From an uncultured Bacteroidales bacterium (GTDB lineage Bacteria; Bacteroidota; Bacteroidia; Bacteroidales; UBA932): DNA of 64,000 nt. Under the pieces are notes generated by a model. That model was given only the letters and a program-made list of their open reading frames with translations. It made no database searches and was not told the DNA's origin. The stretch is from the NCBI GenBank assembly GCA_905234485.1, contig CAJOHV010000003.1:1-64000 (forward strand), given 5' to 3'. Below, one piece after another: positions 290-911 of this stretch (position 1 is the stretch's first letter; every line of letters begins with the position of its first letter). A program made the translations under genes and the position numbers.

Positions 290-320
290 TTTGCCAGCAG
301 CGAGATTATCCTTATATTTG
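290..320 (+). promoter_or_regulatory. Bacteroidetes-type promoter TTTG-N19-TATATTTG
   Basis: TTTG at 290-293 and TATATTTG at 313-320 with 19 nt between them, matching the TTTG/N19-21/TAnnTTTG consensus. Confidence 0.65.
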
Positions 321-324
321 CAAT

Positions 325-395
325 AGCTTCGTGAAAGTTAGAGGGCACTACGGTGCGCCTCCCTGCAGGGGACCTTGGGTACCCCTGTATTTTTT
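325..395 (+). ncRNA. Candidate small RNA with a UACG-capped hairpin and intrinsic terminator
   Basis: GAGG-GCAC-(TACG)-GTGC-g-CCTC hairpin at 341-361, CAGGGGACC-TTG-GGTaCCCCTG hairpin at 366-387, then TATTTTTT at 388-395; promoter at 290-320. Confidence 0.5.
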
Positions 396-876
396 ATGGG
401 TACACCTGAACGACGCTGCTCCCGTCGAATATCCATACTTCTTGAATCGGGGCTTGAACGTTAAGTCTGGAACGAATGGAACGTAAAATACGCCTTGTTG
501 GCACTCCGTCGCGGCTATCAATTATGATTCTATCTGATTGTTTTAGACCGGAACAAAGCATATTTGAGAGTTTACGCTTATTCCATGGGCGGACATAACT
601 TTCATATTCATAAAAAGCGCCATCAATCCATAAATCTGGACATTTTCGTTCGTATCGGGTCCCCAATAATGGACCAAAGATGTCTTGGTAAGATTTTGAT
701 CGATAATGAACAGGGCAAAGGATCTTGACCACACACCCCATCTTTGCGAAGCTGTCCGCAATTATTCTCAAATCCGCTACTTCAGTTTTGGATAAATCCA
801 GGTCTCTTGATATCCAGACTTCACCGGCATCTTTAATCTTGGAAAATAATGTTAACGAATCATTTGAAGTTTCCAT
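394..876 (-). CDS. Hypothetical protein, 160 aa; weak resemblance to CdiA-CT-type tRNA nuclease domains
   Basis: Complete ORF with minus-strand TAACTTTG promoter-like box at 894-901; motif KCPDLWIDGAFYEYES...LKQSDRIIID. Confidence 0.55.
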   Translation of the reverse strand: METSNDSLTLFSKIKDAGEVWISRDLDLSKTEVADLRIIADSFAKMGCVVKILCPVHYRSKSYQDIFGPLLGTRYERKCPDLWIDGAFYEYESYVRPWNKRKLSNMLCSGLKQSDRIIIDSRDGVPTRRILRSIRSRLNVQAPIQEVWIFDGSSVVQVYP

Positions 877-911
877 ATTATTTTAGGTTTCAGCAAAGTT
901 AGTAATAATAA

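Follow-up and report, generated by a model that had tools for sequence, protein, structure and literature searches.

Does a promoter, a hairpin and a terminator packed against the end of a gene amount to a small RNA gene in its own right, and what would such an RNA do for the gene that it faces? The question is raised by one end of a 64,000-nucleotide stretch of DNA (hereafter the window) from an uncultured Bacteroidales bacterium, in which an initial annotation proposed a small RNA of about 70 nt.

Organization of the locus

The features of the locus, with the basis of each assignment, are as follows:

290–320, plus strand: promoter of the ncRNA, with a −33 element TTTG (290–293), a 19-nt spacer and a −7 element TATATTTG (313–320); sequence
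325–395, plus strand: predicted ncRNA of ~70 nt; start inferred, 5–8 nt past the −7 box
325–339, plus strand: hairpin P1 (AGCUU/AAGUU); fold, and seen by eye in most class A relatives
341–361, plus strand: hairpin P2 with a C(UACG)G loop; fold and covariation
365–388, plus strand: hairpin P3, doubling as the terminator stem in the window; covariation
390–395, plus strand: terminator U-tract, overlapping the stop codon (394–396) of the minus-strand ORF 394–876; sequence
394–876, minus strand: CdiA_C-like, toxin-like protein of 160 aa; sub-threshold PF18451 match, AlphaFold2 and viral structure matches
894–901, minus strand: predicted −7 box of the toxin gene (TAACTTTG); sequence alone, in the window only

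The Bacteroidetes promoter claimed at 290–320 has all its elements where they had been placed, and it is conserved together with the hairpins across relatives, keeping its position 5′ of the RNA at almost all loci compared. TTTG and TAnnTTTG make up the consensus of the housekeeping sigma factor in Bacteroides (PMC7366714), and the arrangement TTTG-N18-22-TAnnTTTG occurs three times in the 64 kb window, the two strands taken together. The P2 hairpin and the further hairpin and U-run described after it are likewise present, and P2 and P3 covary, whereas P1 had been missed. The RNA region of the window has a folding energy of −30.6 kcal/mol (z = −2.8; 1 of 200 shuffles equally good). R1, a newly built covariance model of the ncRNA, matches the window at 321–396 (73.9 bits, E = 4e-17), which is its single match within the 64 kb. 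Of the 4227 Rfam families searched at the gathering score, none matched the window region or any of seven relatives.

Linkage of the RNA to a CdiA_C-like ORF

Approximately 80 loci were collected by DNA and protein searches from the same genus, from named species genomes and from IMG/VR. The RNA recurs in Bacteroidales of the gut and in their phages, convergent with a CdiA_C-like ORF. Where the end of the ORF is intact, the promoter and hairpins almost always lie downstream and point towards it, with the terminator at the ORF stop codon. The 3′ end of the RNA abuts or overlaps the end of the ORF in 35 of 38 cases. In an automatic count, a convergent promoter with a YNCG hairpin was found at 53 of the 63 CdiA_C-like ORFs and at 2 of 298 other ORFs (at least 100 aa, same loci), a difference for which the Fisher p of about 1e-50 is indicative only, since the rule was set post hoc and related loci were counted separately. 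At loci that the rule missed (L019/L042, L032, L035, L058, L065, L071, L092), the RNA was found by eye or with the model, its promoter or loop being altered. All ten distant homologues from other genera also have a convergent promoter with an RNA. The window's own genome (1.54 Mb assembly, 82% complete) carries a second copy of the RNA at the end of contig C42, convergent with the same type of ORF; ahead of it lies a third unit, which has diverged and retains the remnant of an ORF. The protein search in named phages gave no match.

The initial annotation had mentioned in passing that the RNA converges on the 3′ end of the 394–876 gene, and the U-run does sit on its stop codon. Comparison of the sequences makes this convergence the main point, as the RNA and the ORF are, on this evidence, a predicted two-gene module that is conserved as such.

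At one locus (L005/L096, G040:C153:8554-8777) a class A RNA that shares 94% identity with that of the window faces an LPD3 ORF remnant and no CdiA_C ORF; this arrangement is either a swap or a recombination relic. Stand-alone modules adjoin tyrosine recombinase genes at L030, L031, L052 and L055 (and L008), which is a possible hint at module mobility.

Covariation of the RNA structure

In an alignment of 26 RNAs (A3), six of the seven P2 pairs vary on both sides (95.6% of the P2 cells being paired), as do five of the seven P3 pairs, giving both-sided changes at 11 of 14 positions and 94.5% of cells paired for the two stems together. Covariation was 0.578 compared with 0.275 ± 0.020 in shuffles, compensatory cells numbered 68 compared with 18.5 ± 5, and the pairing signal collapsed once the partners were slid by one to three columns. 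Inner pairs of P2 swap A-U/G-C and C-G/U-A among distant relatives with the loop unchanged; the loop is YNCG (UACG, UGCG or CACG) in 25 of the 26 RNAs and CAAG in one. P2 contains nine G.U pairs and no A.C pair, so that the fold is maintained in the ncRNA strand and not in that of the toxin mRNA. A second class of RNA (class B), with a U.U mismatch in P2 (GAUUCUACGGAUUC), goes with a second protein clade.

Conservation of promoter and hairpins with compensatory changes is decisive support for the predicted small RNA. Hairpins that failed to be conserved where the promoter was had been named at the outset as evidence against the proposal; the two are conserved together, and promoter, hairpins and terminator are kept as a block in relatives. 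By its conservation the small RNA appears real, and its description as a complete small-RNA unit is supported.

A plainer explanation is that the locus consists of a terminator and a spurious antisense promoter at a gene end. A hairpin with a U-tract is, after all, a terminator, and in low-GC genomes antisense promoters are likely to arise by chance (PMC7366714). Such a coincidence, however, accords poorly with an association with one set of ORFs far over background, or with the covariation of P2, which lies outside the terminator. Furthermore, in L048, L052 and L073 (the last being two tandem modules) P3 is followed by more RNA and a separate terminator, which indicates that P3 is more than a terminator. 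We regard this explanation as very improbable.

The protein encoded opposite the RNA

The window ORF matches PF18451 (CdiA_C) with 21.0 bits (E = 4e-4), under the gathering cut-off of 26.6 bits, and no other Pfam family; a MuF relative with a DxK motif scores 28.8 bits to the same family. The AlphaFold2 model of the 160-aa protein has a pLDDT of 93.4, and its matches in a viral structure library are a CDI toxin-like protein (E = 2.4e-7), a CdiA C-terminal tRNA nuclease (2.1e-5) and also a MuF fusion protein. Judging by the model, the window protein shares the CdiA_C fold. Searches of the PDB by sequence and by fold gave no usable match, matches to MDA5 (E = 0.03) being disregarded, and NCBIfam and PADLOC gave nothing relevant. 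Residues K78, P80-D81, E90 and E92 are conserved (P80-D81, E90 and E92 invariantly), and ExE replaces (D/E)xK, so that the usual lysine of PD-(D/E)xK is a glutamate in this protein. The order of the structural elements (topology) and these conserved residues suggest a PD-(D/E)xK-type nuclease with Glu for Lys, of uncertain activity.

The window protein is thus like the CdiA_C/CDI toxins (PF18451) in its sub-threshold Pfam match, predicted fold and PD...E motif, but differs from them in standing alone at 160 aa, in its ExE motif and in having no protein immunity partner. In phage relatives the domain sits at the C-terminal end of MuF or Portal-MuF proteins (PF04233; phrog_19194), and the window protein is this C-terminal domain alone, without the N-terminal MuF domain. 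The window copy is a stand-alone chromosomal version of a module shared with phages.

The adjacent GH26 glycosidase gene (979–2173) is split in the window into two ORFs (979–1182 and 1211–2173), and in the same-genus locus L006 a GH26 gene runs in one frame across the split point; the split is either a frameshift or an assembly error.

An RNA where an immunity gene is expected

MuF proteins whose C-terminal toxins vary are an established family of polymorphic toxins (PMC5576092). The phage forms of the module resemble them: they too are MuF head proteins, end in a variable toxin domain and occupy the same operon position (PMC5576092; Bxa, PMC11699363). Known MuF toxins, however, have adjacent protein immunity genes (two in the case of Bacteroides Bxa; PMC11699363), whereas here only the convergent RNA gene lies between the toxin and the next structural gene. 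In the phages the toxin is usually followed by one and the same tail gene, which begins ~90–130 nt past it, and the RNA gene therefore fills the gap where an immunity gene is expected. Across the phage loci only structural genes are common, and no adjacent protein is a candidate for immunity. Stand-alone loci share no neighbouring protein family either, the most frequent, tyrosine recombinases, occurring in at most four loci.

A genus-wide search with the model found the RNA with the toxin absent, truncated or frameshifted in nine genomes (G071, G040, G311, G028, G261, G086, G264, G231 and G017), the promoter being recognisable by eye in all of these except G231 and G017. The same search found no intact toxin without the RNA, which gives a loss asymmetry of 9 to 0 (sign test p = 0.004). 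Arrays of at least two RNA units in line occur at C42 (L003, G000:C42), L038, L073, L100/L115, L105 and L107; in L105 (G264:C6) a class A RNA comes first, and directly after it stand an RNA and a frameshifted toxin, both of class B. Some of the orphan RNAs may be mere recent leftovers.

Arrays that combine RNAs of different classes resemble orphan immunity arrays. Polymorphic toxin loci typically include immunity genes that are orphaned or stacked, as in polyimmunity loci (PMC3482391).

The lack of a protein immunity candidate, the loss asymmetry and the RNA arrays argue for an antidote role. We consider that the ncRNA at ~325–395 is probably the antidote half of a toxin-antitoxin or immunity module, with the CdiA_C-like protein of 394–876 as the predicted toxin. 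The missing lysine, which makes nuclease activity doubtful, weakens this reading.

MuF proteins with other C-termini

MuF proteins were then taken from order-wide genomes irrespective of their C-terminus and surveyed for a convergent −7 box alone within ~180 nt of the ORF end, a C-terminal part of at least 120 aa counting as an extension. A convergent promoter was found for 39 of the 48 MuF proteins with an extension (at least one of the 39 looks false), for none of the nine without and for 10 of 132 further ORFs from these loci (39/48 vs 10/132, Fisher p about 1e-21). The one judged a false positive, L176, has a GNAT C-terminus, a weak fold and a small ORF downstream. Stretches 3′ of the survey promoters have a median fold z of −2.7 compared with −0.6 in controls. 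Promoter-bearing C-termini include CdiA_C, LPD3 and PBECR2, the last a predicted RNase family (PMC5512222), as well as several without any match; metallopeptidase-type C-termini (L180) are among those lacking a promoter. Each toxin-domain family is accompanied by its own, different RNA in the same geometry.

An RNA of its own for each toxin-domain family is what any protein-RNA partnership would lead one to expect, and the RNA is conserved both in phages and in stand-alone copies. It might, then, be a functional partner other than an antidote, i.e., a cofactor, guide, packaged cargo or regulator that the protein, or late gene expression of the phage, requires. A cofactor, however, should vanish with its protein, yet these RNAs outlive the toxins and stack in arrays, and MuF proteins without a C-terminal toxin have no RNA. 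Such a role seems improbable to us.

PBECR2-like and LPD3-like MuF C-termini with their own convergent promoters and structured RNAs were observed at several loci (L156, L164, L166, L168, L190, L191, L194; L169, L171, L189, L208, L212). In the same genus, including the window's own genome (L154, G000:C32:5386-5580), stand-alone LPD3 (PF18798) ORFs end against a longer convergent ncRNA (L130–L154), which has its own TAnnTTTG promoter, some covariation and two subtypes (e.g., GGAATCGTC...GGGGAATTCG...TTCGAGCCCC). The LPD3 ORF is present in 29 of 121 same-genus genomes, and some stand-alone copies are fused to an N-terminal helix-turn-helix-like region. The exact pattern of the LPD3-linked RNA had two matches in viral contigs, both due to chance, and a single-sequence scan of viral sequences found no LPD3 relatives.

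Mode of action and comparison with known systems

Within the antidote reading, a sigma-A-type promoter would drive transcription of a short, very stable folded RNA, which would most likely bind and inhibit the nuclease-like protein, as type III RNA antitoxins do, and so neutralise its presumed toxicity. The observations behind the antidote reading are the conserved RNA structure, its linkage to the ORF, the lack of a protein immunity candidate, the survival of the RNA beyond the toxin and the same geometry at other MuF proteins. Type III systems (ToxIN, CptIN, TenpIN; PMC5086642) likewise pair a small structured RNA with a predicted nuclease toxin and have a phage connection. They differ in having unrelated toxin domains, and in their operons a tandemly repeated RNA precedes the toxin, with a terminator between the two, whereas the window RNA is single, convergent and downstream, has its own promoter, and is without tandem repeats or a shown pseudoknot. 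The window protein gave no match to ToxN-, CptN- or TenpN-type toxins in Pfam and PADLOC. By analogy with type III, the want of upstream tandem repeats would count against an antidote that works by binding the protein.

The convergent geometry with overlapping 3′ ends would also count against protein binding, as it is that of type I systems. On such a model the RNA would be a cis-antisense antitoxin: paired with the 3′ part of the toxin mRNA, it would make the message decay or block its translation, in the way that RatA acts on txpA. An antitoxin RNA opposite the toxin gene, with overlap, is a type I trait that is found here, the ends abutting or overlapping in the 35 of 38 cases given above, and the geometry would let the RNA pair with the toxin mRNA in its 3′ part. 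The phage late operon must, moreover, be read through the RNA gene. Antisense contact is inevitable when the toxin operon is transcribed; speculatively, it might even remove the RNA during head production. YNCG loops, on the other hand, are rigid and suit antisense recognition poorly, only one strand has a conserved structure, orphan RNAs and arrays survive where the overlapping gene is missing, and an examination of antisense pairing gave no cognate signal at the toxin translation start. Type I pairs such as txpA/RatA of Bacillus subtilis and bsrG/SR4 (PMC3531473, PMC6562991) are alike in that a short RNA converges on the toxin gene, the 3′ ends of the two overlap and the pair is prophage-borne. 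The usual type I toxin, however, is a small hydrophobic peptide, while the toxin-like protein here is a soluble, CDI-type globular domain of 160 aa, and the RNA structure is conserved over very distant relatives, with orphan RNAs and arrays. We consider an antisense antitoxin of this kind unlikely. The DonS-type cis-antisense RNAs of Bacteroides (PMC7366714) are also short antisense RNAs of Bacteroidales with the same promoter type, but they target susC-type genes, are divergently encoded and involve no toxin.

An RNA acting on the protein is favoured by the one-strand conservation of structure and loop, by RNAs that outlive their toxins, by the lack of cognate pairing at the toxin translation start and by partner domains that include nuclease families. 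It is also favoured by the proposed arrival of MuF toxins inside the phage head (PMC5576092), as a toxin arriving as a protein could not be countered by antisense.

Implications

Temperate phages share the module, with the toxin domain as the C-terminus of a MuF head protein and the RNA in the place of the immunity gene. Tentatively, we propose that Bacteroidales phages may shield their lysogens from their own head-borne MuF toxins by structured RNAs that replace immunity proteins, that toxin C-terminus and convergent RNA may be swapped as a pair, and that bacteria may keep orphan RNAs and arrays as immunity to toxins they no longer carry. Polymorphic toxins have hitherto been described with protein immunity genes, and in the literature searched, of which the coverage was incomplete, no description of RNA immunity for them was found. 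If true, the proposal would mean RNA-based immunity to polymorphic toxins of at least three toxin-domain families (CdiA_C, PBECR2 and LPD3). If short RNAs serve a whole series of MuF toxins, RNA antitoxins would be commoner and more varied than the type I and type III systems known so far, and a function could be suggested for certain antisense RNAs of Bacteroidales that lack an explanation. The tolerance of lysogens to their own MuF toxins, and the effect of such toxins on competition among phages in the gut and rumen, would then become directly testable with a 70-nt gene.
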